This document shows, in pieces, positions 2,731 through 21,411 of a DNA stretch of 56,500 bases. Origin of the DNA: Clostridia bacterium. GTDB taxonomy: Bacteria; Bacillota; Clostridia; Christensenellales; Aristaeellaceae. The notes beneath the pieces are model-generated. The model ran no database searches. It was given only the letters and a program-made list of their open reading frames with translations, and was not told where the DNA came from. The DNA is taken from assembly GCA_017541205.1 (NCBI GenBank), contig JAFXZO010000103.1, positions 1 through 56,500 on the forward strand, in the 5' to 3' direction. Position 1 is the first letter of the stretch, and each line of letters opens with the position of its first letter. Both the position numbers and the translations under genes were made by a program.

Positions 2731-2749
2731 TCCGATCCAAAAAGGCTTT

Positions 2750-2788
2750 CGCCCATTTCCCGCATTCGATGGGAAATGGGCGATTTTT
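2750..2788 (+). terminator. Rho-independent terminator after ilvE
   Basis: A perfect 12-bp stem (2750-2761 with 2771-2782), 9-base loop, then T5 at 2784-2788. On the opposite strand the stem is followed within a few bases by T5 (A5 at 2739-2743), so it may also end the convergent phage transcript. Confidence 0.9.
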
Positions 2789-2792
2789 CTGT

Positions 2793-2984
2793 TTATCTGC
2801 TGTCTGCCCAGCCTTCGCCGAAGATGTAGGCCACGATGGACGCGCCCATCATGACCAGCGCTCCGATCTGCTCCGCTTCCGTGCCGTCCCTGCCGAGGAA
2901 CACCAGCAGCCCCGTCAGAAAACCCACGACCGCGGCCCAGAATTTGCGGGATGTCAATTTCCTGATCCAGTCTTCTTTCGTCAT
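2793..2984 (-). CDS. Phage holin
   Basis: A 63-residue protein with an N-terminal charged segment (MTKEDWIRKLTSRKF), one membrane helix at about 16-30, a short acidic loop (GRDGTEAEQ) and a second helix at about 40-56. Size, two-helix layout and place as the last gene after the endolysin fit small class II type holins of Bacillota phages, which open the membrane to release or activate the lysin. AAGGAAG precedes the ATG. Confidence 0.85.
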   Translation of the reverse strand: MTKEDWIRKLTSRKFWAAVVGFLTGLLVFLGRDGTEAEQIGALVMMGASIVAYIFGEGWADSR

Positions 2985-3008
2985 TTCATGCTTCCTTTCG
3001 TCCTGTCC

Positions 3009-3437
3009 TCACCGCTCGATCAGATAGTTGTTGATTCCGTCCTGGGCGGCCTTCAGTTTATCGATGCTGTTGCCGTTGATTTCGTGGGACAGGAGGGCCA
3101 GCACGCCCCGGCACTGCGCCTTCTGCCCGTCCTCCCAGGTGTTCAGGCGGTTGGTCAGCAGCAGCAGCTTTTTCGTATGATCCTCGATCAGCGCTTTATC
3201 GTTGGAAAGCTTCCTGTCCATCTCGTTCAGGCGCGGCTCCATCTTTTCCAATACCTTCCGGCTGATTTCCTCCGCTATTTCCGGCCCCCTCTGCCTTATC
3301 AGGCTGCGCTGATGCTGGCGGCGGAATACGTCGATCACCTTATCGCCGGCTACGATCAGCGCGCCAAGCCCCGCCAGCACGATCAGGAACGTCCAGATCA
3401 TATCCGGCGTGATCCCCTCCAGCGTATGCATCTTCAT
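3009..3437 (-). CDS. Phage lysis-cassette membrane protein with coiled coil
   Basis: A 142-residue protein starting MKMHTLEG; the ATG at 3437 has GGAGG before it and overlaps the endolysin stop by 4 bases (ATGA), so the two are probably translationally coupled. One membrane helix spans about residues 14-31, followed by a charged helical region (about 35-105) likely to form a coiled coil and a conserved tail with LLSHEINGNSIDKLKAA. Proteins of this type sit between lysin and holin in many Bacillota phages, but their exact role (holin partner, XhlA-like, or anchoring) is not known. An upstream open extension to 3878 is an overlap with the lysin frame and was not used. Confidence 0.75.
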   Translation of the reverse strand: MKMHTLEGITPDMIWTFLIVLAGLGALIVAGDKVIDVFRRQHQRSLIRQRGPEIAEEISRKVLEKMEPRLNEMDRKLSNDKALIEDHTKKLLLLTNRLNTWEDGQKAQCRGVLALLSHEINGNSIDKLKAAQDGINNYLIER

Positions 3438-4300
3438 CTCCCCTCCAGCATCCCTTGGATCGTTTCCGCCGCGTTTTTCATGGAAGCGCAGGCGTATTCG
3501 AGCATGAACCGGTTCACCGGAATGGTATCGCCGGCGGCGGTCTTCCTGCCGGTGTCCGGGCTCGGCGTTTGCTCCATTGCCGGCTCCGGCACATCCTCGT
3601 GCGTTCCGTACCCGTCCAGCGGCACCAGGAATTCGCTCATCATATACCCGATGATCCCGGTATATTCCACCTTGTCCCAGCCGTTGATACTGTCGTCCAG
3701 CACGGCGACCACCATATTGACCGGCGCCTTGCAGATTTCGTCCCTGTCCGTGTTCGGCTGCGGGCGGATGCGCACGGGCTGGCCGTTCGCGGCATACACG
3801 CGGGCATAGTATAAAACTTCGTCCTTCCCTTCCTGCCCGGGATAAGTGACGCCCTTCAGCTTCGCGTAATGGCTCCAATTCCCCAGGCTGTGATCCTCCT
3901 TGATCCCGCCCTCGACGCTGGTGCAGTGCATGATCGTGAACGGGTTGACGCTCATCACCACGCCCACGTGGTAAAAGTCCCGGCTGTCGCCGCTGTCCTT
4001 GTAGCTGTCCGGCAGGTCGTATCCGCTGTCATTCTTCTCCCGCACCTTGAACACGATGTCGCCCGGCTGCAATATGTTTTCCCCGGTGATCTTGTGCGGC
4101 CAGGGGTCTTGGATCGCGTTCCTTACGGCCCAGTTGCTTCCGTGCGTGCCCGTCCATTTTTCGCCCGCCAGGCGCAGCGCCCCGATGATGAGCCCGATGC
4201 AGTCGCACCCGCCGCCGCTTCCGTCCCCGCCCTTTTCATAGCGCGTCACGCGCGCCGCGTTTTTCTGTACGCATTCCAAGAATTTCTGAACAGAGATCAT
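3434..4300 (-). CDS. Endolysin: NlpC/P60 peptidase plus SH3-like wall-binding domain
   Basis: A 288-residue peptidoglycan hydrolase. The N-terminal catalytic domain carries CDCIGL with nucleophile C34 and YHVGVVMS with histidine H111, the NlpC/P60-fold pair; this family cuts stem-peptide bonds. Residues about 165-235 (YYARVYAANGQPVRIRPQP onward to GYMMSEFLVPL) form a bacterial SH3-type domain. The last 50 residues are a linker and a helix. No signal peptide, so release would need the adjacent holin. GGAG precedes the ATG. Confidence 0.85.
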   Translation of the reverse strand: MISVQKFLECVQKNAARVTRYEKGGDGSGGGCDCIGLIIGALRLAGEKWTGTHGSNWAVRNAIQDPWPHKITGENILQPGDIVFKVREKNDSGYDLPDSYKDSGDSRDFYHVGVVMSVNPFTIMHCTSVEGGIKEDHSLGNWSHYAKLKGVTYPGQEGKDEVLYYARVYAANGQPVRIRPQPNTDRDEICKAPVNMVVAVLDDSINGWDKVEYTGIIGYMMSEFLVPLDGYGTHEDVPEPAMEQTPSPDTGRKTAAGDTIPVNRFMLEYACASMKNAAETIQGMLEGR

Positions 4301-4328
4301 GTTGCCGCTCCTTTCGTTCTTTTCGTCC

Positions 4329-5237
4329 TCAATCGCACGTCACATAAAACGCTGCGAGCTGTTCTTCGGTCGCGTCGATAAATTTCGCGAAAGCGGCGTT
4401 TGCCGTGTCTGTAATGACCCACATGACCGTCATTGAATCGTACCCGGCCGGCACGGTGAATTCGTTGTCCGTCAGCGTCTCCAGCGGCCAACCGCTCGAT
4501 GTTGCTCCGCTCCAGGTTTCCGTCGGCTTTCGCGAGGCGATGTACTGCCCGCCGCAGAGCTCGGAGGGAACGTCCTTCTTATACCACAGGACGAAGCACC
4601 CGAACACCGTCGCGGCAAGCTGTTTGACGTGCACCTTCGTGCAATTCTTCGGCAGCGGGGTCGGCACGCACCAGCCGATTTGCGTATAGCTGCCCGGCCT
4701 CGATCCATCGGCTTTCAGGGTGGCGTCCGCGCTCGTGCCCGTCGTCATCGCATAGTCGATCAGAAGTTTTGTTTCCGTCGTGTCAAGGGTCAGCCCGGCC
4801 ATGACTTTTTCGTAATACGTCTTGCTTACATAGTACGAGGCGATCGTTGTAATATCGTTCGATGGGGACGACGGATATATCATGGTGTTGTTGTATTTGC
4901 CCAGCGCCGTCAGCGCAACGCCGCTGCACGTTACGCTGCATGTCGCGGAATACTGCCCGGATGTCAGCGTGATCGTGCACGTCCCGCACCCGACCACGGT
5001 CACCAGGCCGCTTTGCGATACTGTCGCCACGTTTGTATTGCTGGAGCTCCAGCTTGCCGCGTCCACGGTATCCAGCGGAAAGATCGAGGCCGTCAATTGA
5101 TGCGTGCTCCCGATCTGGCTGCTGGTGATCGTGCTGGCGCTCAGCTCCACAGACGTCGTGTGCACCCCGGAAAAAGTCACGGTGTCCAGCTTGTTTTCCG
5201 AAAAATTCGCGTTCTTGATGACCATTGCTTTGCTCAT
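4329..5237 (-). CDS. Phage virion protein with Ig-like (Big2) domain
   Basis: A 302-residue protein. Residues about 28-105 match the bacterial Ig-like group 2 pattern (VELSASTITSSQIGSTHQLT, SSSNTNVATVSQSGLVTV, GTCTITLTSG), a fold used as a decoration or carbohydrate-binding module on tails. The remainder has no motif I recognise. It follows the tail-fibre gene by one base and has GGAGG before its ATG, so it is likely part of, or a partner of, the receptor-binding apparatus. Confidence 0.65.
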   Translation of the reverse strand: MSKAMVIKNANFSENKLDTVTFSGVHTTSVELSASTITSSQIGSTHQLTASIFPLDTVDAASWSSSNTNVATVSQSGLVTVVGCGTCTITLTSGQYSATCSVTCSGVALTALGKYNNTMIYPSSPSNDITTIASYYVSKTYYEKVMAGLTLDTTETKLLIDYAMTTGTSADATLKADGSRPGSYTQIGWCVPTPLPKNCTKVHVKQLAATVFGCFVLWYKKDVPSELCGGQYIASRKPTETWSGATSSGWPLETLTDNEFTVPAGYDSMTVMWVITDTANAAFAKFIDATEEQLAAFYVTCD

Positions 5238-5238
5238 T

Positions 5239-7623: not shown

Positions 7624-7638
7624 ATTTCCCGCCCCTTC

Positions 7639-8529
7639 TTACGTCCTGTGGTTGCGGATAATCAGGATGCCGCTGCCGCCGGGCATGGCCGCCTTGCCTT
7701 CGTACAGGCCGCCGCCGCCCCCGCCGCCGGTGTTCGCCTGGCCGGCGGTCGCGTTCTGGCTCGTGCTCGCGCCGTATCCGCCGCCGCCGCTGCCGCCGCT
7801 CGTCCTCGTTGTTCCAAGGCTGTTTCCGCCGCCGCCGCCCCCCGCGTAGACCGTGCCGCCCGATTCTCCAAATTCCTTGGTCGTCGTGCCCTGCCCTTGG
7901 TATAAGCTATTATACGTCCCGCTCATGGTGCCGTCGCCGCCGTTTGTGCCGCCGTTTCCCGCGTTGTATGTGGCGTTCGTGTCGCCTGTTTGCTTTAGGG
8001 TCCCGCCGCCGCCGCCGCTTCCGCCGTTCGCTCCGGCCCAGTTGATCCCGCTGCTTTGTCCGCCCTCCGCCGAAATCAGATTGCCCATCGAGGTCGTTCC
8101 GCCGGCGCCCGGCCTGCCCGGCGATTGGTCTTCCCCGCCTGCCGCCGTTCCCGCCGCGCCGCCTTCGCCGATCGTCACCGCGTAGGTGCGCCCCGAAACG
8201 AGCACCACGCTGCTCACCGTCTGCGTGTATCCTCCGGCCCCGCCGCCGCCTGCGGCGGCAATTATGGTATCCTCGCCGTCGCTGTGCACGTATTTGCCGC
8301 GCGATCCGCCGCTGCCGCCGCCCACCGCGAACAGGTCCACCGTCTGATGGCCCATGAAGGTCAGGCTTCCGCTGGTCAGCAGCTTTAAGCGCCAGTCGCC
8401 GTTATCATCGTCGATCAGGATATAATCCCCGGTATAGGCAAAGTCCACCAGCACCACCGGATCCTCTTCCTCGCCCTGTTCGCCGCTGCTTAAATTCCCC
8501 CAGCCCGTGGGAAAAGCGTTGATGATCAT
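7639..8529 (-). CDS. Glycine-rich phage tail protein
   Basis: A 296-residue protein. After about 60 ordinary residues it is dominated by polyglycine stretches (GGGSGGS, AAGGGGAGG, GGGGGGNSLG, GGGGGGGLYEG). This composition is typical of distal tail-fibre or adhesin tips in which glycine-rich loops contact host receptors. It ends GILIIRNHRT, a conserved-looking close. It overlaps no neighbour and lies between the beta-helix fibre and a baseplate-like protein. Confidence 0.65.
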   Translation of the reverse strand: MIINAFPTGWGNLSSGEQGEEEDPVVLVDFAYTGDYILIDDDNGDWRLKLLTSGSLTFMGHQTVDLFAVGGGSGGSRGKYVHSDGEDTIIAAAGGGGAGGYTQTVSSVVLVSGRTYAVTIGEGGAAGTAAGGEDQSPGRPGAGGTTSMGNLISAEGGQSSGINWAGANGGSGGGGGTLKQTGDTNATYNAGNGGTNGGDGTMSGTYNSLYQGQGTTTKEFGESGGTVYAGGGGGGNSLGTTRTSGGSGGGGYGASTSQNATAGQANTGGGGGGGLYEGKAAMPGGSGILIIRNHRT

Positions 8530-8532
8530 CCG

Positions 8533-9471
8533 TTATTCCTCCAATGCAATGATGTTCACGTCTATGGCCACGCTGGGCTTTGTTCCCAGCGCGCGGAAGG
8601 TCACGCTTCCGTCCGATTGCGCCACACAGCTGATCTGCGCCTTGGCGATTTCGCGCGCGTCGTTGCCGCCCGTATCCTCGCCGACGCCCACGATCAATTG
8701 ATCGGCCGCATTGACGGCGGCGCACGCCTTGCTCGCCGTGTAGGGCGCCGCGGCGCCGATCCAGTCCGTGCTTTCGATGGTCAGGCTCGCGTGCTTTACC
8801 TTGCTCTTGCCCTGCGCCGTGGTCAGGGCCGTGTTCGCAAGCGCGGTCACTTGGGAAAGCGCCTCCTCCAGTTCCGTGCTCCAGCTGCCGCTTTCCATGG
8901 TGTCCATATAGGCATCCCATTCCTCCTCGGTGCCCTCGTAGCCGTTGAGCACGGCCAGCTCATACGCCCCCTCGCTGCCCAGCATCGCGCTGTTTATGTT
9001 CAGCGTTTCGTTTTCCACGCTGATATGCACGATCTTGCCGTAGGCCATCAGGATCTCCATCGCCTCCCGCGCCGCCTTCGCCGCGCTCTTCGCCTTTTCC
9101 GCCTCCGCGAGCGCTTCCATCAGCAGCGTTGGAAAGGTCCTTTCCACGGTCTCCGAGATCGGGGGCAAATCGCCCACGTCCATATAAAAGATTTCGCTGT
9201 TCCAGGCCACGGTGTTCGCTCCCAAAATCTCCACCCACGCCCGTATCCTGCCCGGGACCGCGGTCACGCTGGCCGGCAGCGTCGCAAGCCCTTCCTGGAT
9301 GTTCAATACCTCCGGCGAATTGTCCGGCAGCATCATGCACAGCTGCGCCGTCTGGCTGTCCGATACCTGCGGCAGCACAAAGCGCATCTTTTCCGCTTTC
9401 TGGTCCGTTTCCATCCCGACGCTCACCGCCCCCGGCGTGGGCGTCCGTCCGGAAAATCTCATGGTTATCAT
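8533..9471 (-). CDS. Phage baseplate/tail-fibre-attachment-like protein
   Basis: A 312-residue protein with strong AAGGAGG site. The first 130 residues (RFVLPQVSDSQTAQLCMMLP, GRIRAWVEILG) resemble N-terminal parts of BppU-type baseplate proteins; an alanine-rich helix follows (AEAEKAKSAAKAAREAMEIL), and GYEGTEEEWDAYMD matches the short G-x-x-GT-EEEW motif common in Bacillota tail fibres. The C-terminal 90 residues form a small separate domain. The likely role is linking fibre to tail; this is inferred from position and motif only. Confidence 0.55.
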   Translation of the reverse strand: MITMRFSGRTPTPGAVSVGMETDQKAEKMRFVLPQVSDSQTAQLCMMLPDNSPEVLNIQEGLATLPASVTAVPGRIRAWVEILGANTVAWNSEIFYMDVGDLPPISETVERTFPTLLMEALAEAEKAKSAAKAAREAMEILMAYGKIVHISVENETLNINSAMLGSEGAYELAVLNGYEGTEEEWDAYMDTMESGSWSTELEEALSQVTALANTALTTAQGKSKVKHASLTIESTDWIGAAAPYTASKACAAVNAADQLIVGVGEDTGGNDAREIAKAQISCVAQSDGSVTFRALGTKPSVAIDVNIIALEE

Positions 9472-9536
9472 GGTTTATCCTCCTTGCCTTTCTTCGCATT
9501 GGCCTCGCGTCGCAAGCCCGCAAGGGGTTTGCTCCT

Positions 9537-10106
9537 TTATGCGATGAAAAAGATATCGCATGGGTATCCGTTCTCGCCCTCGGCGCCTGTCCTCAGCCAG
9601 ATGATCCCGTGCCCGCTGGGCTTGCTGGGCCCCACAGCGATCTGATAGGCCGTGCTCTCGCCCGTGCCGCCCGCCAGCGTGATCGCCATTCCCGCCGCGC
9701 GTCCGCTTTCCAGCGTCAGCGTTTTTGCGCTCATGTCCCCGTCGCCTTTCAGCAGCAGCGCCGGGCTCTCCGCCGTCCCGCCCAGCTTCAGATAGCTGTT
9801 CCCGTCGCCCTTCACGCGGAAGGTCCCCGCGTCCTGCCGCATCCCGTCGTTGTCGATTCGCAGGTAATCCGTTTTGATGCGCGCCGCCGTCCTGCCCGCG
9901 CTCCCGCCGCTCGGCATCCCGCCCTGCATCTGCGCCTTCACCGCGCCGCTCAATTGCTCCGTCCCGATCGCCCCGGCCTCGATGTTCCCGCCGTCCAGGT
10001 GTTTGAGCGCGTACCGCATCTGCTCCTCCAGCTGGTATACGTACTCCATCACCTGCTGCACGTCCGTGATCTTTCCCCGCGTCTGGATGTCCCCCAGCAT
10101 CGCCAT
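9537..10106 (-). CDS. Phage tail-associated protein, function unknown
   Basis: A 189-residue protein with AAAAGGAGG before its ATG. Residues 1-40 are helical (VQQVMEYVYQLEEQMRYALKHL), followed by NIEAGAIGTEQLSG, a short motif often found near the start of tail-fibre shaft regions, and a beta-rich C-terminal half (RVKGDGNSYLKLGG). No enzyme motif seen. Position suggests a tail adaptor or fibre. Confidence 0.5.
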   Translation of the reverse strand: MAMLGDIQTRGKITDVQQVMEYVYQLEEQMRYALKHLDGGNIEAGAIGTEQLSGAVKAQMQGGMPSGGSAGRTAARIKTDYLRIDNDGMRQDAGTFRVKGDGNSYLKLGGTAESPALLLKGDGDMSAKTLTLESGRAAGMAITLAGGTGESTAYQIAVGPSKPSGHGIIWLRTGAEGENGYPCDIFFIA

Positions 10107-10154
10107 GCGCCCGTCCTCCTTTTCCTGGGTTTACGCTTCCATCACGTTTTTGTC

Positions 10155-11798: not shown

Positions 11799-11813
11799 GG
11801 TCTTTCCGCCCCC

Positions 11814-13601
11814 TTATCTTCCGTCGCTGCCCAGCGCCATTTCCCGCGCTATGCCGTACAGCCGCATCTCTCCGTGCCCCTCGAGCCTTATCTGCATATG
11901 CTCGCAGCGCCTGGGCACGATGGGCAAAAGGTAGGTTTTCACTTTGCCCTTGCCCTGGATCGTTCCTTTTCTTTGCCAGATCCCGTCCGAATCGTACTGG
12001 ATCGATACCTGGCAGTCCGCCGTTTCGCCCAATTGCATCCTCAGCACAAAGCGGCTCAGGTATTTGTGGTCCGGGTAATCATAGCCCATGATCCCGCTCT
12101 CCGCGTACCAGGTCACGTCCTCGGGCTCCTTTTCTCCTTCCGTCCCGTCCAGCGCGTAGAGCTCGCCGTTTGCACTCAGCATGTACATTTCGCCGCCAAG
12201 CTCCGCAAACGCGATGGCCCGCGCGTCGTCCTGCCTGTGCCAGGTCCCGCGCTCCGTGTTCATCACGTACAGGCTCCAGGTCCCTGTTTCTTCCTGCGCG
12301 CTCAGGTAATACAGCCCGCCCGCCTGGCCCGCCGCGCCCTTTTTCAGTTTCCCTTCGCCCAGCGCCTTGCTCACCGTCTGCGGCAGGCTCTCAAAGAGCT
12401 GCACCCCGTGCCGCCCCAGGTAGAACACCGCCCCGTTGTAGGCAAGCAGCGTCCCTTCGCTGCCCTCCTGCACCCCGTCGCAGAAGGTCGTCTGCATCTG
12501 GTAGCTGGCCGGATAATCCCCGAAGATGCGGTGCACGCAGTCCTCCTTGAAAAACCACGGGTTTCCCCTGTGCACCACCGCGCCCGTGAACGGCCCGTCC
12601 GTGCCCACGTTCACGTAATAGCTGTCCATGCTCGTGCCGGCGTACCGGCTCCAATTCTTAAAATCGCCCAGGCCGCACGCATATATCCGGTTCACGAATT
12701 CCCCGTTTTCCTCCCCGTACCGGCAGCCCCACAGGCGGTTGTTGTTCTCGATGATAAAGTCCAGCGCCGGGGCCGTCCTGTCCGCCCGCACCCGTCCCCC
12801 GCTCTGGGTATAATTCCCGTCGATGATCCCGATCACCACGATATAATCCCTGTCCACGGCCTGCACCAGCATCGTTTCGTTCAGGCCCTCCAATTGCTCT
12901 TTCAGTGCGTCGTTCTCCCCGGAATAGCTGATCCCGCTCAGCGTCACCCCGTCGCCCACGCTCAGCCCGTATCCGATCCCGGCCGCCGCGATCCTCACAT
13001 ACACGCTCGAAACGCCCACCCAGCTGTTCTGCTGGCCGCCCCATTGATAAAGCGCGTGGGGCGACGCGCCCGTGTTCAGCCAATAGTCGCCGTCGTCCGG
13101 GCTTTCGGGCGCTTCCGCGCTCTCGGTCATGTCCGTCCTCGGGTAGTCCACCCCGTCCATGTCGCACAGCGTATAGTGCACGGTTTCGCCCCTGGGCGTC
13201 TCGTACAGCCTTTCCAGGCTCCCCGAATCCATGGGGTCCACCGTGTTGTAATACTTTTTGTCCGGCCAGATCACGATGTAGCTGCCCATGGACGCCATGC
13301 GCTTGGGCAGCATGTTTTCCTCCAGCGAAAGGTCGTTGATTGCCGTCGGTTCCCCGCCGTAATACAGCGTGCTCCCGTCGATCCACGCCAGCTTCCCCAG
13401 CGCCATGAGCCCAAGCGGCTGCTCCAATTCCTTAACGACGCCGCGCTTTTTCCGGCTCGACAATAGCGGCCACGGCTCCCCCGTCATGTTCCCCATGGCG
13501 GAAAACGTCCCGTCGTACGCCCGGGGCCGCCTGTCCAGCCCGCTAAACTGCTCCGTCCATATCCGCTGCGTGTTCACGCTGTCCAAAGGTGGGTATAGCA
13601 T
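11814..13601 (-). CDS. Phage head-tail or tail structural protein (beta-rich, P22 gp10-like position)
   Basis: I start this 595-residue protein at ATG 13601 (MLYPPLDS), with AAAAGGAG 9 bases upstream, rather than the TTG at 13637. It is beta-rich with repeated short strands such as GKLAWIDGSTLYYGG, GLYYLSAQ, GEMYMLSANGELYALDG, which suggests a propeller-like fold. Its place directly after the small connector gene fits the hub or stabilisation protein that closes the portal in short-tailed phages. No sequence motif proves this. It is followed 15 bases later by the repeat protein. Confidence 0.6.
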   Translation of the reverse strand: MLYPPLDSVNTQRIWTEQFSGLDRRPRAYDGTFSAMGNMTGEPWPLLSSRKKRGVVKELEQPLGLMALGKLAWIDGSTLYYGGEPTAINDLSLEENMLPKRMASMGSYIVIWPDKKYYNTVDPMDSGSLERLYETPRGETVHYTLCDMDGVDYPRTDMTESAEAPESPDDGDYWLNTGASPHALYQWGGQQNSWVGVSSVYVRIAAAGIGYGLSVGDGVTLSGISYSGENDALKEQLEGLNETMLVQAVDRDYIVVIGIIDGNYTQSGGRVRADRTAPALDFIIENNNRLWGCRYGEENGEFVNRIYACGLGDFKNWSRYAGTSMDSYYVNVGTDGPFTGAVVHRGNPWFFKEDCVHRIFGDYPASYQMQTTFCDGVQEGSEGTLLAYNGAVFYLGRHGVQLFESLPQTVSKALGEGKLKKGAAGQAGGLYYLSAQEETGTWSLYVMNTERGTWHRQDDARAIAFAELGGEMYMLSANGELYALDGTEGEKEPEDVTWYAESGIMGYDYPDHKYLSRFVLRMQLGETADCQVSIQYDSDGIWQRKGTIQGKGKVKTYLLPIVPRRCEHMQIRLEGHGEMRLYGIAREMALGSDGR

Positions 13602-13633
13602 GCCCCTGTCTCCTTTTCGTTCCGTCCTGTCAT

Positions 13634-14014
13634 TCAAAACCTATGGTGCACACATCTGGGTCTCGGCCTATGGTTCCTGTGATACCAGCGCTTGTATTGC
13701 CCCAGCGCGTTCGCGTAGAGCTTCGCGCTGTTGTTGTATTTGTCATACTCCAGGTTGGCCAAATCAATGTGCATTTCCAAATAAAACCTGTACACCTCGT
13801 CGTACGGCGCGGGCGCAAGCAGCGCCGTGTCCCCGTCCGTTTCCTGGGTGTAGGGGACAAACGCTTCCGGCGTCCTTTCATCCGGCTCATGGATCTTAAG
13901 CACCTCTTCAAACAATCGCTGGTCCAGCCTGGCCAGCCATTCGATTTTCCTCTCCCGTTCGATCTGGTTGGGTTTTAATTCGTCCACCAGAAAAATCGCC
14001 TGCTCAATGGTCAT
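13634..14014 (-). CDS. Phage head-tail connector-like protein
   Basis: A 126-residue, all-helical-looking protein (PNQIERERKIEWLARLDQRL, EVYRFYLEMHIDLANLEYDKYNN). Small proteins with the P-N-x-I/Y-x-x-x-x-K-I-x-W-L pattern follow the capsid gene in many Bacillota phages and bind the portal as adaptors (gp6/gp15-like). GGGAGG precedes the ATG. It ends 33 bases inside the region before the next gene's chosen start. Confidence 0.65.
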   Translation of the reverse strand: MTIEQAIFLVDELKPNQIERERKIEWLARLDQRLFEEVLKIHEPDERTPEAFVPYTQETDGDTALLAPAPYDEVYRFYLEMHIDLANLEYDKYNNSAKLYANALGQYKRWYHRNHRPRPRCVHHRF

Positions 14015-14069
14015 TGCCGCCTCCCATCCCCCGGGCGGGGCTGATGCGCTCCGCCCGGGACTGCCCGGT

Positions 14070-14327
14070 TCAGATCGTCATGGCGTATTCGCGCGTTCCG
14101 GCGTCCTTTGCCGCCTCCTGCTCCATGATCTTCTGCCTGTCCAGCATTTCCATGATCACTTCCCACAGGGGCATGGGCACTTCCACCAGCTGTTCCTTGG
14201 GCACGAAATACGTTTTGTTGTTGACGCCGACCTCCAGGGTGTTCTGCTCGCTCCTGCTGCGCTTGGGAATGAACACCTTGCGCATATCCTGCCAGGGGTC
14301 GTAAGGCTTTGCCGTTTCATGCTTCAT
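14070..14327 (-). CDS. Small phage protein after capsid gene, unknown role
   Basis: An 85-residue protein with GGAGG site. It contains VGVNNKTYFVPKEQLVEVPMPLWEVI, split here as the core NNKTYFVPK and EVPMPLWEV, a pattern repeatedly found in short proteins just downstream of N4-gp56-type capsid genes. It may be a minor head protein or decoration; no enzyme motif is present. Confidence 0.6.
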   Translation of the reverse strand: MKHETAKPYDPWQDMRKVFIPKRSRSEQNTLEVGVNNKTYFVPKEQLVEVPMPLWEVIMEMLDRQKIMEQEAAKDAGTREYAMTI

Positions 14328-14363
14328 TTTCGCGTTCCTCCATTCTTTTTCGACGCGCTTTTG

Positions 14364-15671
14364 TCACTCGTCCGCGTCCTCGTCCTCCGTGGAATAGAAG
14401 CTGCCGCATTCCACGCGGAGCAGCCGCTCCTCGTAGAGCACGCCGCCGCCGGTTTCAAAATACACGCCGATGGTGCCGAACTGGTTGAGCGGGCCGCCCG
14501 CTTCCTCCGGCGTTTTCACGATCACTTCCAGGCTGCCGCCGTCCACGTCGATCACGCCGAACGCGTTCCTGCCAAGGAAAATGCAGCCGTATACCGCAAT
14601 GCCTTCCGCGCCGCCCTCGCCGGGATAGATCACCGTATTGTCGTCGCAGGTCACGCTTGCGTCTACGGTCAGCTGGCTGTCGGTATTGGCGGTCACCTTC
14701 ACCTTTTGGGAGCCGATCAGTACATACCGGCCCTTCAGCGCATTGCTGGCCACGGTGCCGCCGTCAAAGGGAATGGTCGTCGCGGCGCTAAGGCCCGCGG
14801 ACACCGCGTCGTGCGCGGGGGCGTTTACCGCCAGGTTGGTGGCGTCGCTGGCCAGGGGCTTGCCGCGGTACACCTTGGCGTTGTCGCTTTCGATGAAGCG
14901 CACGCCGTGGAGCTCGCCGATCTCGCCGTTGTAGATTTCCTCGGGATGCGCGTACTCATGGGCGTTGATCCACCCGTTTGTCTCCCTCAGATCGTACGTC
15001 ACGCTGGGATGCACGATGGCCACATATTTGCCGTTGATCTTGGGGGCCTTGTGCTTTTTGAGCCAGGTCACGGCCCGGTTCACCATGGTCGGGGTCAGCA
15101 CACAGCCGGAGGTCAATTGGCTGCGGCTGGTCACGGCGTCGCCGTTCGCCTTGTCGCAGTACATCACGTTGCTGCCGGACAAAGCCACGTTCCGGGCGAT
15201 CTTGTCCTGGGTGTTGCCGCCGGCCGCGCCCATTTCCTCCGCCGCGTCCTGCGCCACGGGGTCCACCGCGTGCCGCTGCAGTCTGCGGCCCAGGGGCGTG
15301 TAAGCGCCGTATTCATACACGGTGGCCTGCACGGCGCTGTAGCCGAATTTCTGCCCGTCCGGGATCACGCCCTCCTGGAGCCTCGGCACGTCGCCAAAGG
15401 TGTTGGCTTTGCGCATTTCAACGGTCATGCCGTGATGCTCGGGCAAGGGGATGTTCTTGGCGAACTGGGCAAAGATGTGGTTGCTGCGGGCGTTCTCCAG
15501 CGCCTCGGTGTTGTACCAGGCCTTGATCTGGGGCTCCATGGTATTGCTGCTGTCAAACGCTTCCGCGCTGCCTGTGTTCGCGTTGGTATAGTTGCCGGTA
15601 TTCGCCACGGGATAGCCGCCCTGCGCGCCGGCGTCGGGAGCCATCAGAATGCCATGCCATTCATTTTTCAT
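14364..15671 (-). CDS. Major capsid protein, N4-gp56 family
   Basis: A 435-residue HK97-fold shell protein. Family hallmarks include a short N-terminus without a long delta domain, TPLGRRLQRHAVDPVAQDAAEEM, a KYVAIVHPSVTYDLRE segment, and GELHGVRFIES near the axial domain. An insertion around residues 255-340 (Ala/Thr/Val-rich, KGRYVLIGSQKVKVTANTD) may be a surface domain. It directly follows the scaffold gene. AGGAG precedes ATG 15671. Confidence 0.88.
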   Translation of the reverse strand: MKNEWHGILMAPDAGAQGGYPVANTGNYTNANTGSAEAFDSSNTMEPQIKAWYNTEALENARSNHIFAQFAKNIPLPEHHGMTVEMRKANTFGDVPRLQEGVIPDGQKFGYSAVQATVYEYGAYTPLGRRLQRHAVDPVAQDAAEEMGAAGGNTQDKIARNVALSGSNVMYCDKANGDAVTSRSQLTSGCVLTPTMVNRAVTWLKKHKAPKINGKYVAIVHPSVTYDLRETNGWINAHEYAHPEEIYNGEIGELHGVRFIESDNAKVYRGKPLASDATNLAVNAPAHDAVSAGLSAATTIPFDGGTVASNALKGRYVLIGSQKVKVTANTDSQLTVDASVTCDDNTVIYPGEGGAEGIAVYGCIFLGRNAFGVIDVDGGSLEVIVKTPEEAGGPLNQFGTIGVYFETGGGVLYEERLLRVECGSFYSTEDEDADE

Positions 15672-15701
15672 GCTTTACTTCTCCTTTTTCAATGATCTTT
15701 G

Positions 15702-16511
15702 TCAGATGTTTTTCACAAAATCGATGGTCTCGCCATTGCGGATCCTGCGGCGGTATGCTTCCCGCGCCTGTTTATCCATGTTTTGGATGTCCAGGCTCAT
15801 CTCGGCTGTTCCCGGCTTTTCCATCCCGTTTTCCACGGGCCTGCTCGCGCCTGAACGCACGCTCGAGGCGATTCTTTCCCCCGCCTCCCAGGCCGCCAAA
15901 CGCATGCTCTGCAGGCGGATGGCGTCCCCATGCAGCGCGTAAAACGCGTCTCTCACCGTCATGCCGCTGCCCGGCGCCGTCATGCGTACGAACGCGGGGT
16001 TCCGCATTTCCCGGATCAGGTCAAAATCCGGAAAGGACCGTTTCAGCGCTTCCGCCTGCTGGGCCAGCCTCAGAAAATGCTGGCGAAGCGCCCATTCCCT
16101 GTAGGATTCGCTCTGGTTCGGCCGCGTCCGCGCGTCCTTGTCCGCGCTTGGGTCCTTTGTGCTGTTTCGGGCTTCTTCATTGCGCAGCCTTTCCAGGATC
16201 GCTTGAACGTCCATCGGCTCCAGGCCGTATTTTTTGCCCAGCGCGCTCGCCAGGGGCATCAGTTCCTCCGCCTGCTTCTTCCAATCCTGCTGGTTGCGGA
16301 ACCGCTGCTGGATGGCCGCCTGGATGCGCTGCCCCACGGCGTCCTCGTATTCCTTGCGCCATTCGCCTTCGATCATCTGGCGGAAAGTCGGTTTCTCTGT
16401 CCCTTCTGCGCGCGATTCTGTTTTTTCCCGGTTTAGGCTGTCCTCCCGTTCGGCCTTGCCGGCCATGGCCTTTTCGTCCTGCGCAAACCGCTGCATATCC
16501 AATTTTTCCAT
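15702..16511 (-). CDS. Phage capsid scaffold protein
   Basis: I chose ATG 16511 (MEKLDMQRFAQ) with AGGAGG before it, giving 269 residues; an earlier in-frame ATG at 16583 lacks a good site. The sequence is highly charged, helical and lacks cysteine: AEREDSLNREKTESR, EWRKEYEDAVGQRIQAAIQQRF, then a C-terminal helix MSLDIQNMDKQAREAYRRRI. Position between portal and capsid, composition and the basic C-terminal helix fit a scaffold that guides shell assembly and leaves before packaging. Confidence 0.75.
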   Translation of the reverse strand: MEKLDMQRFAQDEKAMAGKAEREDSLNREKTESRAEGTEKPTFRQMIEGEWRKEYEDAVGQRIQAAIQQRFRNQQDWKKQAEELMPLASALGKKYGLEPMDVQAILERLRNEEARNSTKDPSADKDARTRPNQSESYREWALRQHFLRLAQQAEALKRSFPDFDLIREMRNPAFVRMTAPGSGMTVRDAFYALHGDAIRLQSMRLAAWEAGERIASSVRSGASRPVENGMEKPGTAEMSLDIQNMDKQAREAYRRRIRNGETIDFVKNI

Positions 16512-16632
16512 CCTGTCTCCTCCTGGCCGTTCTTCGGCCGTTTTTTCTGCCCTTGGGTGGGCGATGCCTGAAAGAAAGCGCATTTTCCCCTGTTTGGAAG
16601 GCCCCCCAATCTTTCCCCTGCGCTTTCCGTCC

Positions 16633-18687
16633 TTATTCGGGCTGGCTCACGCTCCGCGCTCTTTCCCGAAAGCGCGCCATCTGCGGGGTTTCGGATACGT
16701 CCGAAAACCTCGCGATCCTGCGAAGGCTGATCGGGCCGCCCGGCGCCATGTCCCTCTCCGCCTGCGAAAGCACGGCCCGGGCCATCCTGTCCGCTGTGAC
16801 AGGCTCGTACCGGGATGCCAGCGCGATCGCCATCTTCTGCCACACCGCCGTCATCTTGGCCATCATGCCGTTCCTGCGCACCTTTTCCAGCAATTCCTCC
16901 TTGCGGTTAAAATCCATCATGGAAAGAAGCACAGCGCCCTGATCCGCCAGGTTCGGGTTGAATACCCCGGCGCTGAGCAGCTGCAGGGCCAGCTCGTTCT
17001 GCGCCATCTTGCTGTACGCGTTCTGCTTCTGCGCGCTCATCTGAATGTCGAATATGGGCTTGCGCCATCCCGTGCTCCAGCCGCCGATCGGCTGGTTTGG
17101 CCGTAACACCAGGCCGCTGTTGTCATAGCGCACGTATTCATATTCCGCATCCGCTCCCAAAATACGGAAGGTGCGCGGAGCGTCGTAAAACTGCCTTATG
17201 CGCTCGATCACCTTTTCCAGGATCCTGGAATACGCCCGGTACGTGCCCTTGTTGGCATCCCGGCTGGTGCGGCCCACCGCCTCCATCTGCGCCGCGATGC
17301 CGCTGGCCGCCGTCACGCCGCTGGCGATCCCGTTGCTCACGTCCTGGTTGCCGCAGGTCTGCTTCAGTTCTTCGATCTTATCGTTCAAATGCTGCACATA
17401 CATCTTGTCCAACGGGAAATACTGGATGGGCTTCATATCCACGTCTCCCAGGCCGCCTTCCACGTTCACCACCGGATTGCTGAAATCCATGAATTGGTCC
17501 AGGTTGATCGCCGAATCGTTTTTTCTGAAATACCTGGGGATCGCGCCGGCCCGCGCGTTCAGGCTGATAACGTGGTCCAGCAGGTCGATGTTTTCCTGCG
17601 TGCCTCTGCCCAGATCGATGTAGCCCCAGCCGGCGGGGCTCCCCTTCTGCGGAAACAGCGGGTCGAGCACGAACGGGTATTCCCCGTCCTCATACCATGC
17701 GCGGCCTTCCATGTTTGGGTCGTCCTCGCTGGCGTAGAGCACCTCCAGCCCGCAGTATTTGCAGTATTCCAGCGTTTGCCTTCCGCTGCGAAAGCTGTGG
17801 TAATACCAATCCACCACCAGCGCCTTGTCGCTTTTGCCCTGCAGATCCTCCGTCTGATACTGGGTCAGGGAAAAGTCCGTCTGCATGTTCACGCCGCGCA
17901 GCTGCGGGTACTGCTGCCGAAGGGCATCCTTGTCCTGGGCGGAGACCAGAAAGAGGTGCTTGCTTTTTTGAATGTCCTCGATCCCCGGCTCCCAGAACAG
18001 GTTCATCAGATCAATGCCGCAGATCGTCACGTCGCCCAGGCCGTTTAGCTTTTTGCTGTCCCAGTACACCGCGTAGGCCGCCGTGCCGTGCTTGTTCTTT
18101 TCCCAGGCCTGCTTTGCGTAGACCTCGTCGAATTTGTTCTGCTCCAATACCACCGGCAGGATGCTGGTCAGGCGCTTTGCCTCCCGCTCGTCGCTTCTTT
18201 CGCGCGGCAGGATCACCGGCTCCGGATACGCGTCCACCATGTCCGCGTGCTTGCCCATAATGACGTTCACCAGCCACTTGGTCGGCCGGATGGCCTCGTC
18301 CGTTCCGCCTGCCGCACGCATCCCGTCCCAGGCATGCCCGCGCCACCATTTTTCGTCCTCCTTCAGCCGCGCCTCCAGCCGCGCTTTTCCCGCCTTATAC
18401 TTTTTCAGGATCTTGTTGGCCTCCATCAGCCTCTCCCGCGTCATGCGCTTTGGCAGCGGTGCGGCCGGCGGCGGCATCCCGCCCATCTGTCCCGGCATCC
18501 CGCCCGGCTGCCCCATGGTCGCTGTCCCGCGCTCCGGCCTCATCATATCCGGCGGCGGCATGCCTGTCCCGCCCTTCAATGCCCGCGCCGCCGCGTAGGG
18601 CACGCCCTCCCGCTGCTCGGTGCCGTTCGTTTCCGCGCCCTTGCGAAAGCTCTTTTCCATATGCGCCATCGCTTCTTCACGATTCAT
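16633..18687 (-). CDS. Phage portal protein (P22-like)
   Basis: A 684-residue protein with GGGAGG site. After a Met/Pro/Gly-rich N-terminal linker (about 40-80) come typical portal segments: EKWWRGHAWDGM, KWLVNVIMGKHADMVDAYPEPVILPRE, KNKHGTAAYAVYWDSKK, GIDLMNLFWEPGIEDIQ, and the long stem/wing region ending with EAVGRTSRDANKGTYRAY. It would form the dodecameric ring that binds terminase and the connector. A CKYCGLEVLY motif (two cysteines) around residue 320 is unusual but also seen in portals of this type. Confidence 0.85.
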   Translation of the reverse strand: MNREEAMAHMEKSFRKGAETNGTEQREGVPYAAARALKGGTGMPPPDMMRPERGTATMGQPGGMPGQMGGMPPPAAPLPKRMTRERLMEANKILKKYKAGKARLEARLKEDEKWWRGHAWDGMRAAGGTDEAIRPTKWLVNVIMGKHADMVDAYPEPVILPRERSDEREAKRLTSILPVVLEQNKFDEVYAKQAWEKNKHGTAAYAVYWDSKKLNGLGDVTICGIDLMNLFWEPGIEDIQKSKHLFLVSAQDKDALRQQYPQLRGVNMQTDFSLTQYQTEDLQGKSDKALVVDWYYHSFRSGRQTLEYCKYCGLEVLYASEDDPNMEGRAWYEDGEYPFVLDPLFPQKGSPAGWGYIDLGRGTQENIDLLDHVISLNARAGAIPRYFRKNDSAINLDQFMDFSNPVVNVEGGLGDVDMKPIQYFPLDKMYVQHLNDKIEELKQTCGNQDVSNGIASGVTAASGIAAQMEAVGRTSRDANKGTYRAYSRILEKVIERIRQFYDAPRTFRILGADAEYEYVRYDNSGLVLRPNQPIGGWSTGWRKPIFDIQMSAQKQNAYSKMAQNELALQLLSAGVFNPNLADQGAVLLSMMDFNRKEELLEKVRRNGMMAKMTAVWQKMAIALASRYEPVTADRMARAVLSQAERDMAPGGPISLRRIARFSDVSETPQMARFRERARSVSQPE

Positions 18688-18754
18688 CTCTCATACCTCC
18701 CATTATTTTCTCCCTCTGTCATCCCTTCGGCTGCGCTCAGGGCCTCCCCCGTCC

Positions 18755-20167
18755 CTACCGTTTTCTTTTCCTGAATTGGTTCAGCGGGTCAAACATCGGC
18801 GCCGCTTCCGCCTTCGCCGCCCTGGGCTTGATCGGGTCCGTCATGCACAAGTACCGCCATTCGTCCGCCACGTGGTCCTCCATCTTGCTGTCCAGGTCCT
18901 CCGGGATGTGCTCGTCGTAGCACAGCATCGGGATCGTCCGGATAAACGCCTCGCAGGTTTTGAACACGTACATCATCGGGTATCCGTTTTCGTCGAAGGC
19001 CAGCCGGTAATGGCACTGCATCCAGCCGGGGATCCGCTCGTTGTTCCCCTTGTCGAAATAAACCCTGTGCTTTTGCGCCACGTCGTTGCGGCTGATCCCG
19101 TTTTCCTCCCCCGCCCAGATGCTCGGGTCCGCAACGCCCAATATTTTCTTGCCCGAAAGCCACGGGTGCTCCCGCTCCATCCGCGCGATCTCGGAAAATA
19201 TCTTGTCGTCCACCCATTTGACGCCCTCGTTGGGGATATCGCTCCCGTCCCGGTCCTTCCGGCAGCCGTAGAGCTCCAGAATCCGGTAGAACACCCCGTC
19301 AAAGTCCACCGCCCACCAGGCGCAGGAGAAGGGCTTCGCGTAGCCCCAGTCAAAGGAGCGGTAAATGCGCCAGCCGCGCGGCGGCTCGAAGGGCTCGATC
19401 ACGTGCGTCCATTTCTTGTCCAGGTAGTGTTCCGGATCGTCCCGGAATTCCTCAAAAAATTGCCCCTCGTATACGTCCCAGTTGCCGTACAGCCACGCGT
19501 CGCGCAGCTTGGGCGGCAGGGCCTTCAATTGCTCCAGGTAATCCGGCTGCTCCCGCATCAGCGCCTTGTTGTCCGTCACCAGCGCCTGGATGAACACGTA
19601 TTCCTCCGGGTTCTCCCCCTCGCGGAAGCGCCGCTCCTTCAGGCGCTTGATGTATTGGTGTCCCGGCCCGCCCGGGTTGCAGGTCATGTACAGGCGCTTT
19701 GGAAAGCTGTTCGTGCCGCGCACGCAGGCCGCGATGCTCTTTAGCTGGTATTCGGTCATGTTCGTGGCCTCGTCGATAAAGATCGCGTCATATTCATGGC
19801 CCTGGATGTTCTTCAGGTCGTCGTCCCTCGCGCAGTACATGAATTTGATCGTGCTCTCCGCCATGGCGCCCGCCGCCTTCGGGAACGTGAACCTGTGCTC
19901 CGTCCCGTTGTAGTGCGCGATCCCGTTCAGCAGGTTTTTGAGCGGGTTGATATGGTTTTCCAATAGCTCCGGATAGCTCCTGCGCATGATGAGCACCCGG
20001 ATGCCCGGGTATTTGAAGCACAGCAGCACCGCTTTCCATCGGACCGCCCAGCTTTTCCCGCCGCCCCTGGCCCCGCCGAATATCACGTATTTTTCCTTGG
20101 CATCCAAAAACTGTTTCTGCCGCTCGCTTGGCCGCTGCATTTTCAGCTTCCGCGTTTTTTTCTCCAT
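18755..20167 (-). CDS. terL: Terminase large subunit
   Basis: A 470-residue packaging motor. Walker A is GGARGGGKS at residues 31-39, Walker B IFIDE at 129-133, coupling motif CNPGGPGH near 178. The nuclease domain has SFDWGYAKPF (first metal aspartate) and GVADPSIWA (second). All key residues are present, so the enzyme looks active. It begins 6 bases after the small subunit stop. Confidence 0.93.
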   Translation of the reverse strand: MEKKTRKLKMQRPSERQKQFLDAKEKYVIFGGARGGGKSWAVRWKAVLLCFKYPGIRVLIMRRSYPELLENHINPLKNLLNGIAHYNGTEHRFTFPKAAGAMAESTIKFMYCARDDDLKNIQGHEYDAIFIDEATNMTEYQLKSIAACVRGTNSFPKRLYMTCNPGGPGHQYIKRLKERRFREGENPEEYVFIQALVTDNKALMREQPDYLEQLKALPPKLRDAWLYGNWDVYEGQFFEEFRDDPEHYLDKKWTHVIEPFEPPRGWRIYRSFDWGYAKPFSCAWWAVDFDGVFYRILELYGCRKDRDGSDIPNEGVKWVDDKIFSEIARMEREHPWLSGKKILGVADPSIWAGEENGISRNDVAQKHRVYFDKGNNERIPGWMQCHYRLAFDENGYPMMYVFKTCEAFIRTIPMLCYDEHIPEDLDSKMEDHVADEWRYLCMTDPIKPRAAKAEAAPMFDPLNQFRKRKR

Positions 20168-20173
20168 TCGGCC

Positions 20174-20584
20174 TTATTCTCCCAAGCGCTCCACTTCGTC
20201 CTCCATCACCACGTTCAGCCTGTCCGCTTCCTTTTTCTCCGTCCTTTCCTGGGAAAGCTTTTTCAGCATCAGCCGGGTCGCGGTCTGGCGGTTGATCGCC
20301 TCCACCATGCGGGAAATGTTTTCCGCCTTTTCCGTTTCTCCGTCCATCACCTTGACCGCCTGCGCCAATACGATTTCCACCTCGTTCGACGCTTCCATCA
20401 GCCTGGAAAGCTTTCCCTTGTTTTTTCCTGTTTCCGCGTCCCTCCTGTCCCGCCGCTTTTTCTGCCAGCCGTCCTGCTTGCTCCATTTCCTGACCGTTTC
20501 TTCCGGAACGGCGATTTCCTCGGCCAGCGCCTTAAGGGTCATGCTCCCGGCAATGTACTTTTTTCCCGCTTCCTGCCTGTCCAT
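20174..20584 (-). CDS. terS: Terminase small subunit
   Basis: A 136-residue protein. The N-terminal 45 residues (SMTLKALAEEIAVPEETVRKW, trimmed: LKALAEEIAVPEETVRKWS) form a helix-turn-helix typical of small subunits that recognise the packaging site; the rest is a charged coiled-coil oligomerisation region. GGAGG lies 9 bases before ATG 20584. Position directly upstream of terL supports the call. Confidence 0.82.
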   Translation of the reverse strand: MDRQEAGKKYIAGSMTLKALAEEIAVPEETVRKWSKQDGWQKKRRDRRDAETGKNKGKLSRLMEASNEVEIVLAQAVKVMDGETEKAENISRMVEAINRQTATRLMLKKLSQERTEKKEADRLNVVMEDEVERLGE

Positions 20585-20641
20585 CCGCTTTCACCTCCAG
20601 CGCCATCCTCCTTTCCCTTCGCGCCGGATGACAGCGCCTGC

Positions 20642-20857
20642 CTATTCCTCGTAGTTTTCCTGGATCGCACGGTACATTTCGCAATTCTCGTATTTGCCGC
20701 AGCAAAACACCTCGTATTGAATGTTTTTCGCCTTGGTGCTGTCAAAGTTCAGTTTGGCGCTGCTTTCCGGGATCACGCCTTCGCAGATCACGCTGTTTTT
20801 CGTATGCGCGAAAAAGAACGGGCATTTGGCGTCTCTGTCGTTCAGTTTCCCTTTCAT
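20642..20857 (-). CDS. Small cysteine-rich phage protein, probable zinc binder
   Basis: A 71-residue protein starting MKGKLNDRDAKCPFF. It has C-P-F-F-x(9)-C and FCCGKYENC, four to five conserved cysteines that could bind zinc. Short proteins with CPFF...ICEG...FCC...C lie just before terS in many gut Bacillota phages; no function is known to me. Start chosen at ATG 20857, which overlaps the stop of a 28-residue reading frame (ATGA), implying coupled translation. The open frame continues upstream to 21067 but that part looks non-coding. Confidence 0.7.
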   Translation of the reverse strand: MKGKLNDRDAKCPFFFAHTKNSVICEGVIPESSAKLNFDSTKAKNIQYEVFCCGKYENCEMYRAIQENYEE

Positions 20858-20940
20858 TTCATGTGCCTTTCCTGGGTTTTCTTTTCCCCCGCGTCCGCCG
20901 CGCTGCTTTTTTCTGTGCATATATATTGGTTGAAATGCAT
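20854..20940 (-). CDS. Putative 28-residue leader protein of the phage operon
   Basis: A small reading frame starting MHFNQYICTEKSS and ending ERHMK, with a strong GGAGGGG 8-9 bases before ATG 20940. Its TGA overlaps the ATG of the next gene (20854-20857, ATGA). It is the first frame after the predicted promoter and may serve to couple translation. Coding status is uncertain because it is short and I recognise no relative. Confidence 0.4.
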   Translation of the reverse strand: MHFNQYICTEKSSAADAGEKKTQERHMK

Positions 20941-20955
20941 CCCTTGCTCCCCTCC

Positions 20956-20998
20956 TTCGCTTGCATAGGCAAACATATGTTCTCTTTTTCGCTTGCAT
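20956..20998. repeat. 11-bp direct repeat flanking LexA-like box
   Basis: TTCGCTTGCAT occurs at 20956-20966 and 20988-20998, 32 bp apart (about three helical turns), with the LexA-like box between them and the second copy overlapping the -10 of the phage promoter. It may be another operator. Confidence 0.5.
20971..20982. promoter_or_regulatory. LexA-like (SOS) box 1
   Basis: AAACATATGTTC on +, i.e. GAACATATGTTT on -, matches the Bacillota LexA pattern GAAC-N4-GTTY. With the flanking bases it fits 12 of 14 positions of the B. subtilis consensus CGAACRNRYGTTYC. It lies about 8-20 bases after the predicted start of the phage transcript, a blocking position. Confidence 0.6.
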
Positions 20999-21025
20999 TA
21001 TATCCGCATCCGCCGCTTCCGTAAA
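20997..21025 (-). promoter_or_regulatory. Predicted sigma-A promoter of the phage late operon
   Basis: Reading the reverse strand: TTTACG (21025-21020), 17-bp spacer, perfect TATAAT (21002-20997). Start would fall near 20990, about 50 bases before the 28-residue frame. Confidence 0.55.
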
Positions 21026-21178
21026 GCCCCCTTTTCTTTTCCCTTCCATATTCTTCCTGAATCGCACATGATCCGCCGCTCAATGTGCAATTTCGTACGC
21101 TGCGTTTTTTGCCTCCTGAAAATCGCGCCGTTTCTTTTCGTTTTTTCCGCGCATCCGAAATAGTCCCCTCCAAAATCA

Positions 21179-21190
21179 GAACACGTGTTT
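21179..21190. promoter_or_regulatory. LexA-like (SOS) box 2
   Basis: GAACACGTGTTT, centred on a 10-bp palindrome (AACACGTGTT, 21180-21189). The 14-base context AGAACACGTGTTTC matches 13 of 14 positions of CGAACRNRYGTTYC. It is about 60 bases upstream of the Spo0A boxes and 155 upstream of the phage -35. Confidence 0.55.
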
Positions 21191-21252
21191 CTTTTTCATG
21201 GTTCCAATTTTGTGGAAATAAATCTCATTCCGTCGGCTGATTTCGTTTTTTC

Positions 21253-21279
21253 TGTCGAAAAAGTGCTGATTATGTCGAA
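21253..21279 (+). promoter_or_regulatory. Two Spo0A boxes (0A boxes) in direct repeat
   Basis: TGTCGAA at 21253-21259 and 21273-21279, each followed by AA, exactly 20 bp (two helical turns) apart and in the same orientation. Both match the 0A consensus TGNCGAA. They end 26 bases before the -35 of spo0A, an activator-type position, which implies autoregulation. Confidence 0.75.
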
Positions 21280-21304
21280 AACAATTCTTATAGTAATCTT
21301 TTAG

Positions 21305-21332: not shown

Positions 21333-21411
21333 AGTTTTTGAACCAACACTTCCGCGGCAAGAATCCTGCGGAATGGTCACGGCTCAAAAACGAAAGGAAG
21401 CGGGTGGAACA

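Follow-up and report, generated by a model that had tools for sequence, protein, structure and literature searches.

The window analysed here is one entire contig (JAFXZO010000103.1; 56,500 bases) of a 3.0-Mb metagenome-assembled genome (MAG) of a Clostridia bacterium (G000, 84.9% complete, 121 contigs). Beside spo0A it carries a nearly contiguous row of 18 open genes, which spans ~18 kb on the minus strand from 20857 to 2793 and reads leader, terS, terL, portal, scaffold, capsid, connector, tail/fibre genes, lysin and putative holin, as obtained by open reading frame (ORF) calling with a simple codon-score caller (Table 1). We consider it likely that this locus is a gene-transfer-agent-like domesticated podovirus, in which a P22-like short-tailed late operon has been kept by the host, and the bacterium probably uses the element to package DNA. 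An earlier note on this DNA had proposed a domesticated, host-regulated particle of the short-tailed type, and that proposal is supported by the confinement of the element to one host clade, by congruent trees, by host-like synonymous divergence (dS) and nonsynonymous-to-synonymous ratios (dN/dS), by an SOS-type box at the promoter and by dispersal of the genes in sister genomes.

The tailed-phage origin of the particle proteins is borne out by PHROG and Pfam matches for TerS, TerL, the portal and the capsid. In a 10-sequence alignment of TerL, GGARGGGKS, D132-E133, D273 and D347 are invariant; we take GGARGGGKS to be the Walker A motif and D273 and D347 to be nuclease-site residues. TerS has a helix-turn-helix (HTH)-like start by eye and matches DNA-binding PHROGs, while PDB sequence searches returned nothing for the capsid or g11814 and one weak match for the portal. 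Across the 29 genomes of the genus, G000 included, 13 carry an element, and their frames are open throughout with the exception of an apparent frameshift in the G011 terL (assembly). The leader protein has no Pfam or NCBIfam match, and its gene is present in 12 of the 13 elements (that of G017 is cut by the contig end) and in four phage loci, two of them being one phage. Lysin homologues occur also in G011, where the nearest one lies on another contig, and in eight genomes outside the clade, presumably within other phages.

Outside the operon, Pfam and NCBIfam searches of the called ORFs of the contig, covering all except one small ORF (29750-29953), revealed no phage integrase, repressor or replication gene, and the contig does not show the set of integrase, repressor and replication genes that a temperate prophage would hold within the element. 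The flanks have no common exact repeat of 11 bases or more, the window has no tRNA, and a PF03354 search of the own genome gave no match. The earlier note had described an intact late operon with unbroken frames and preserved terL active-site residues, lying next to spo0A without early genes or att repeats, and each of these statements holds; the operon comprises the genes that it listed, but starts a little further out, at the promoter and box given in Table 1.

The distribution of the module, as we call the operon genes, is one line of evidence for domestication. A close TerL is found in 12 of the 29 genomes, and capsid and g11814 homologues are found in the same 13, the one added being G017, whose contig begins inside the portal gene. 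In a host tree built from IlvE, Spo0A and the 1165-aa surface protein, missing genes being entered as gaps, all 13 carriers fall within a single clade of 14 (local support 0.996), and none of the 15 genomes outside it has the module. A maximum-likelihood tree of six module proteins and one of three host proteins, each with 13 taxa, have 9 of 10 splits in common, the sole difference being the weak node G004/G021; at most 4 common splits were reached in 20,000 shuffles of the tip labels, and the module alignment is compatible with the host topology (approximately unbiased test, p 0.44). For these trees the G024 capsid ORF (549 aa, called through into g14070) was trimmed to its first 435 residues and the G024 g14070 omitted, while the capsid and portal of G011 and the portal of G017, cut by contig ends, were kept as they stood. 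Single-gene FastTree trees partly conflict with the host tree: the capsid tree places G005 with G024, next to G017 and the phage locus v022, and the g11814 tree pairs G000 with v022.

Divergence between sister genomes follows the host in the same manner. Median dS of module and host genes in four pairs was 0.207/0.298, 0.511/0.424, 0.216/0.174 and 0.671/0.644, with no significant difference in rank tests (p 0.13-0.57; 14-33 host genes per pair, taken as reciprocal best hits within the fetched loci). Median dN/dS was 0.08-0.19 for the module and 0.10-0.14 for host genes, again without significant difference, and the dN/dS comparison that the earlier note had called for finds the module behaving like host genes, under a similar purifying selection, in all four pairs. 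Three of these pairs are of the split type described below and one (G006/G026) is of the contiguous type; G026/G011 was left out. The G011 terL was used as called, with an apparent frameshift that inflates the terL values of that pair.

The operon promoter is divergent from spo0A, and a box of the form GAAC-N4-GTTY, as would mark a member of the SOS regulon, lies at the promoter. A strict box, GAACRNRYGTTY, is present in the 200 nt that precede the leader gene in all five contiguous-type elements with upstream DNA (G000, G006, G011, G024 and G026), in none of the seven split-type elements and in none of the four phage loci (three distinct phages). G006, G011 and G026 are close kin, so that the boxed elements amount to about three lineages, and the promoter of G017 lies outside its contig. 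The viral fragment L021 has a looser box, GAACACAAGTTC. In a wider set, 4 of 73 leader-bearing loci have a box near the leader, all of them contiguous-type elements of this genus, against a background of 19 boxes (those of the elements counted in) over 1.05 Mb of fetched DNA, or ~0.004 per 200 nt. Because boxes of the same class precede recA (by 109 nt) and an IMS-family (Y-family) polymerase gene (by 41 nt) in the own genome, the GAAC-N4-GTTY type suggests itself as the LexA box of the genus. All seven split-type elements instead have the promoter TTGACA-N17-TATAAT (TATACT in G021) with a GTTTN-N5-YAAAC palindrome directly after it; GTTTR-N5-YAAAC was not enriched over a reversed control in seven genomes, and no regulator was found for it there. 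Control of the operon by Spo0A was considered and rejected: two TGTCGAA sites lie ~400 nt from the leader, on the spo0A side, and among the other elements only G007 has TGTCGAA within 450 nt of the leader.

The elements come in two architectures. In the contiguous type, to which the window and G017 belong and, within what the contig ends show, also G006, G011, G024 and G026, the genes form a single row. The lysin closes this row in the window, G006, G017, G024 and G026. In the split type (G004, G005, G007, G010, G014, G020 and G021) the portal and scaffold genes are not adjacent. Locus A of this type holds the leader, terS, terL and portal; on its leader side it meets the same host block, from a dipeptidase to an RlmH-like gene by eye, in five of the seven (G007, G010, G014, G020 and G021, in the last of which about four additional genes intervene), and on its portal side the host genes are mostly different, being common to G004 and G021. 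Locus B runs from the scaffold through capsid, g14070, connector, g11814 and g10155 to g9537. It is continuous in G004, G007, G014 and G020. The capsid and connector parts of G021 are on different contigs, the connector part behind ABC-transporter genes (by eye), and those of G005 and G010 likewise occupy a contig each, at the contig ends or close to them. A third locus, found in five of the seven (G004, G007, G014, G020 and G021), is a lone gene for a 707-805-aa fibre whose start is homologous to window positions 8533-9471, with a weaker match in G028, outside the clade; it adjoins a pth-mfd-like host block (by eye) in G007, G014 and G021, and in G007 only, an NlpC/P60 gene comes next after it.

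It is about an even call that the genus preserves successive steps of domestication, from a LexA-wired contiguous operon to one subclade in which the genes occupy at least three loci and the SOS box has been exchanged for another regulator. The four host genes that follow locus B of G004 recur in G010 (77-94% identical), where they come behind the portal gene of locus A, and the two loci look like remnants of a single row. The ancestral site may be the one beside spo0A, given this shared block and the fact that three of the four split-type spo0A loci seen keep an SOS-boxed start divergent from spo0A. The earlier note had asked whether the order ilvE, module, spo0A is conserved: the spo0A side alone is found again, in one further species (G024), and the whole order is not conserved. 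The junction of the leader with spo0A, carrying both SOS-type boxes of Table 1, is thus present in the assembly of another species, which speaks against a chimera in which a phage contig was joined to spo0A and ilvE. Such a joining might be feared in a MAG of 121 contigs, and the ilvE junction is seen in the window only, but the GC content of the operon (0.607) is also near that of its flanks (0.579 and 0.594), and we hold a chimera to be very improbable.

Gene transfer agents (GTAs) are characterised in excerpts of PMC9662315 by six features: proteins derived from tailed phages, full endogenisation, often over multiple loci, mostly vertical inheritance, packaging of mostly random host DNA, a head too small for the element and delivery of the DNA. 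Sequence tests find the first three here, in that the proteins are of tailed-phage origin, the element is endogenised (split over host loci in seven sister genomes, one locus in the window itself) and it has co-diversified with its hosts, the last being weakened by two nested phage sequences, v022 and v025, discussed below; the other three features concern particles. The nearest published system found is FpGTA of Faecalibacterium, presented in January 2026 as the first podovirus-like GTA, and we liken it by description, the present element being known from its genes. According to excerpts of PMC12946183, FpGTA resembles the window in being podovirus-like, in holding terS, terL, portal, scaffold and capsid in one operon and in belonging to a gut Gram-positive anaerobe, and its fibre and lysis genes lie in a second locus in some strains. 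The present elements differ from that description in their hosts, in their contiguous 18-kb form or split form of at least three loci and, for the contiguous type, in the SOS-type box at the promoter. The same excerpts report GTA-like packaging in Christensenellaceae and name no operon for it. Among the records and excerpts returned by a literature search (gene transfer agents with LexA, SOS box or Christensenell, and broader terms), we found no report of this element. Faecalibacterium appears in no title among the best 80 of 154 relatives. RcGTA and other alphaproteobacterial GTAs have unrelated hosts and particles of the siphovirus type. As described in excerpts of PMC9662315, these GTAs are similar to the present elements in their host-controlled late phage genes, dispersed loci and vertical inheritance. 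LexA is reported to act on RcGTA via CckA (excerpts of PMC9638019), whereas here the box is at the operon promoter itself.

Several observations weigh against a domesticated, LexA-controlled GTA. Within the host clade, G003 (85% complete) is without the module. The window's element has no close relative and so stands outside the dN/dS comparison. The SOS pattern occurs 10 and 10 times per strand in the own genome, compared with 8 and 7 for a reversed control, and a count so barely over the control means that most such boxes are there by chance. In the seven split-type genomes no lysin homologue was found other than SH3-type matches, and the NlpC/P60 gene beside the fibre gene of G007 is an unrelated one. 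The HTH-like start of the window TerS differs from the TerS of FpGTA, which the excerpts of PMC12946183 describe as without an obvious DNA-binding domain. The own genome has an unlinked tyrosine-type phage integrase gene on contig C60 (L311). When four phage loci are added to the tree, v022 joins the window's element with support 100 and v025, a phage-like contig, joins the G006 group with support 99, both on long branches, so that the elements do not separate cleanly from phages as a clade of their own. Finally, adjacency of leader and terS had to be dropped as a mark of domestication: the gap is 16-92 nt in 12 elements and L021 and 3.7-6.9 kb in four close phage loci, but it is also short in more distant phage loci such as L032. 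Absence of a giant virion protein was likewise not used as a mark, most phage loci being cut short.

The integrase gene and the pairing with v022 could be taken as signs of a defective or split prophage, a late-gene remnant that is being lost and whose early genes have been deleted or lie elsewhere, as the earlier note had offered as its alternative; the missing genes could also fall in the gap of a genome that is 84.9% complete. We regard this as improbable. The module persists in 13 of 14 species of one clade with frames open bar that of the G011 terL, its dN/dS in sister pairs matches that of host genes, its flanks share no exact repeat of 11 bases or more, and its spo0A junction recurs in the G024 assembly. 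Furthermore, an early-gene marker (one gene typical of related phages) is present in 1 of the 29 genomes, G014, which also holds a true prophage, and is absent from the own genome at its 84.9% completeness.

The nesting of v022 and v025 among the elements would imply either late-gene exchange with phages or more than one domestication. Repeated domestication would mean that host-specific temperate phages co-diverged with the species and lost their early genes independently in several lineages, a history different from ours that overlaps with it in function. It would fit with the leader-side neighbours, which vary by lineage (spo0A, an MtaB-like gene, STAS-like genes or the dipeptidase block, by eye), and with a similar cluster in two Oscillospiraceae MAGs. 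We nevertheless find it unlikely, since 9 of 10 splits are common to the host and element trees, about three lineages share a promoter-plus-SOS-box layout that is absent before the leader gene of close phages, and the spo0A junction is common to G000 and G024. The leader gene of the window also argues for late-gene exchange over repeated domestication, being closer to that of G024 (65% identity) than to that of v022 (46%).

The phages concerned are related to the element. v022 and v023 are the same phage, as are v022 and the temperate phage contig L023 (IMGVR_UViG_3300031760_000251), and L022 is again the same phage as L023 (10,029 of 10,044 overlapping bases identical). A related prophage is carried by G014 on contigs C30 (L171) and C47 (L246), which we infer to be one prophage from capsid pieces at both contig ends, and the same genome carries a split element. 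L023 and the G014 prophage have homologues of the window's leader, terS, terL and portal (TerL 83 and 76% identical to the window), and head and tail genes homologous to the window are found in L022 and in G014:C47, which also encodes a 3398-aa virion protein. Unlike the window, both have a serine recombinase and leader-terS gaps of 5167 and 3683 nt that hold other genes; L023 also has an HTH repressor-like gene, and G014:C30 holds early genes beside its recombinase.

We tentatively propose the following course for the domesticated podovirus. A host lineage would have kept the late operon of a P22-like phage and lost the genes for integration, repression and replication. DNA damage would lead to RecA-stimulated cleavage of LexA and turn the operon on, whereupon short-tailed particles could assemble. 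No phage genome was found that TerL could package, and it would therefore load the heads with host DNA fragments; lysin and holin would release the particles. ComEC, encoded on the window contig, is a possible route of DNA uptake, though its position near the operon may simply reflect how the host genes are arranged. A PBSX-like particle for killing or lysis, which packages host DNA without delivering it, would be just as domesticated and differ in purpose. SOS-type control and variable fibre genes would suit a phage-derived bacteriocin too, and PBSX of Bacillus subtilis, compared here by description only, is likewise a domesticated phage particle in a Gram-positive host, tailocin-like and described as not injecting DNA (excerpts of PMC12946183). 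This purpose seems doubtful to us, in that the genes for terminase, portal and capsid show the same conservation as host genes and a pure killing device would hardly need them, while the ComEC on the contig indicates that an uptake route may exist. If the GTA-like reading is correct, the element would be a concrete candidate for GTA activity of the Christensenellaceae type among relatives from rumen and gut. With its contiguous and dispersed forms and its living phage relatives, this one genus would then allow the order of the domestication steps and the switch of control to be tested.

The features of the locus are collected in Table 1. For the 794-aa putative fibre, the loci compared gave one short match, in G006. 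On the far side, the operon faces the convergent ilvE, whose identity was confirmed, as was that of spo0A (TIGR02875), and the terminator between them would also serve the operon from its other side.

Table 1 Features of the operon and its borders, with positions in the window
Feature	Position	Strand	Evidence or remark
Promoter TTTACG-N17-TATAAT	20997..21025	-	10/12 consensus positions; top minus-strand site within 2600-21500
LexA/SOS-type box GAACATATGTTT	20971..20982	-	pattern match; 14 nt past -10 box
Leader gene, 71-aa Cys-rich protein	20642..20857	-	alternative start 20920 possible
Small terminase TerS	20174..20584	-	PF10668, phrog_1206
Large terminase TerL	18755..20167	-	PF03237/PF04466, phrog_979; invariant residues
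P22-type portal protein	16633..18687	-	PF16510, phrog_156
Scaffold-position protein	15702..16583	-	phrog_13908 (unknown function); placed between portal and capsid
Major capsid (head) protein	14364..15671	-	phrog_1357, PF13252
g14070, small conserved head-region protein	14070..14327	-	homologue in 13/13 elements
Connector-like protein	13634..14014	-	phrog_12105 (unknown function)
g11814, virion/tail-hub protein	11814..13637	-	phrog_511, internal virion protein
g10155, virion protein, 547 aa	10155..11798	-	homology; 191-258 aa in six split elements
g9537, tail-region protein	9537..10106	-	homology
g8533, tail/fibre protein	8533..9471	-	homologous to start of third-locus lone fibre gene in split genomes
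Glycine-rich tail protein	7639..8529	-	PF21722
Putative tail fibre, 794 aa	5239..7623	-	open frame; profile searches gave nothing
Big_2 Ig-domain virion protein	4329..5237	-	PF02368, phrog_215
Putative endolysin with SH3-like region	3434..4300	-	PF08239 below cut-off; same-place homologues in G006, G017, G024, G026
Membrane-anchored protein, probably lysis-associated	3009..3437	-	read by eye; Pfam gave nothing
Putative holin, 63 aa	2793..2984	-	two hydrophobic stretches by eye; Pfam gave nothing
Stem-loop terminator, operon versus convergent ilvE	2749..2783	.	14-pair stem, T run on + strand
Second SOS-type box GAACACGTGTTT before spo0A, outside operon	21179..21190	+	pattern match

Two loci beyond the genus, L380 (an Oscillospiraceae MAG) and L403 (a Candidatus Limivicinus faecipullorum MAG), have the same gene order from leader, terS, terL and portal to g11814, adjoining thrB/thrC-like host genes (by eye) and a divergent HTH gene. 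Their module proteins are 78-95% identical to one another and three host genes 85-91%, which makes the cluster a candidate for a second domesticated element.

Around spo0A, an IS110-family transposase lies directly behind the gene in the window (22284-23531), and the adjoining stretch at 24396-27893 encodes the 1165-aa SdrD_B/SpaA-type surface protein, whose homologues in the genus reach no more than 57% identity to it. In G024, contigs C102 and C111 share an exact 55-base end inside spo0A, and C111 carries genes for ParA-like, sortase-like and 2805-aa proteins beyond that end (names by eye). A GAACATATGTTT box also lies 258 nt before the integrase gene on C60 of the own genome (L310, L311). 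Small ORFs (49-88 aa) divergent from spo0A were seen in G004 (L258), G007 (L176), G014 (L257) and G021 (L177), with an SOS-type box before them in G004, G014 and G021, in the place that the operon occupies in the window and G024. A strict SOS-type box is present 193-361 nt before the called start of spo0A in 13 of 19 genomes examined, which suggests that DNA damage may be linked to the control of sporulation.

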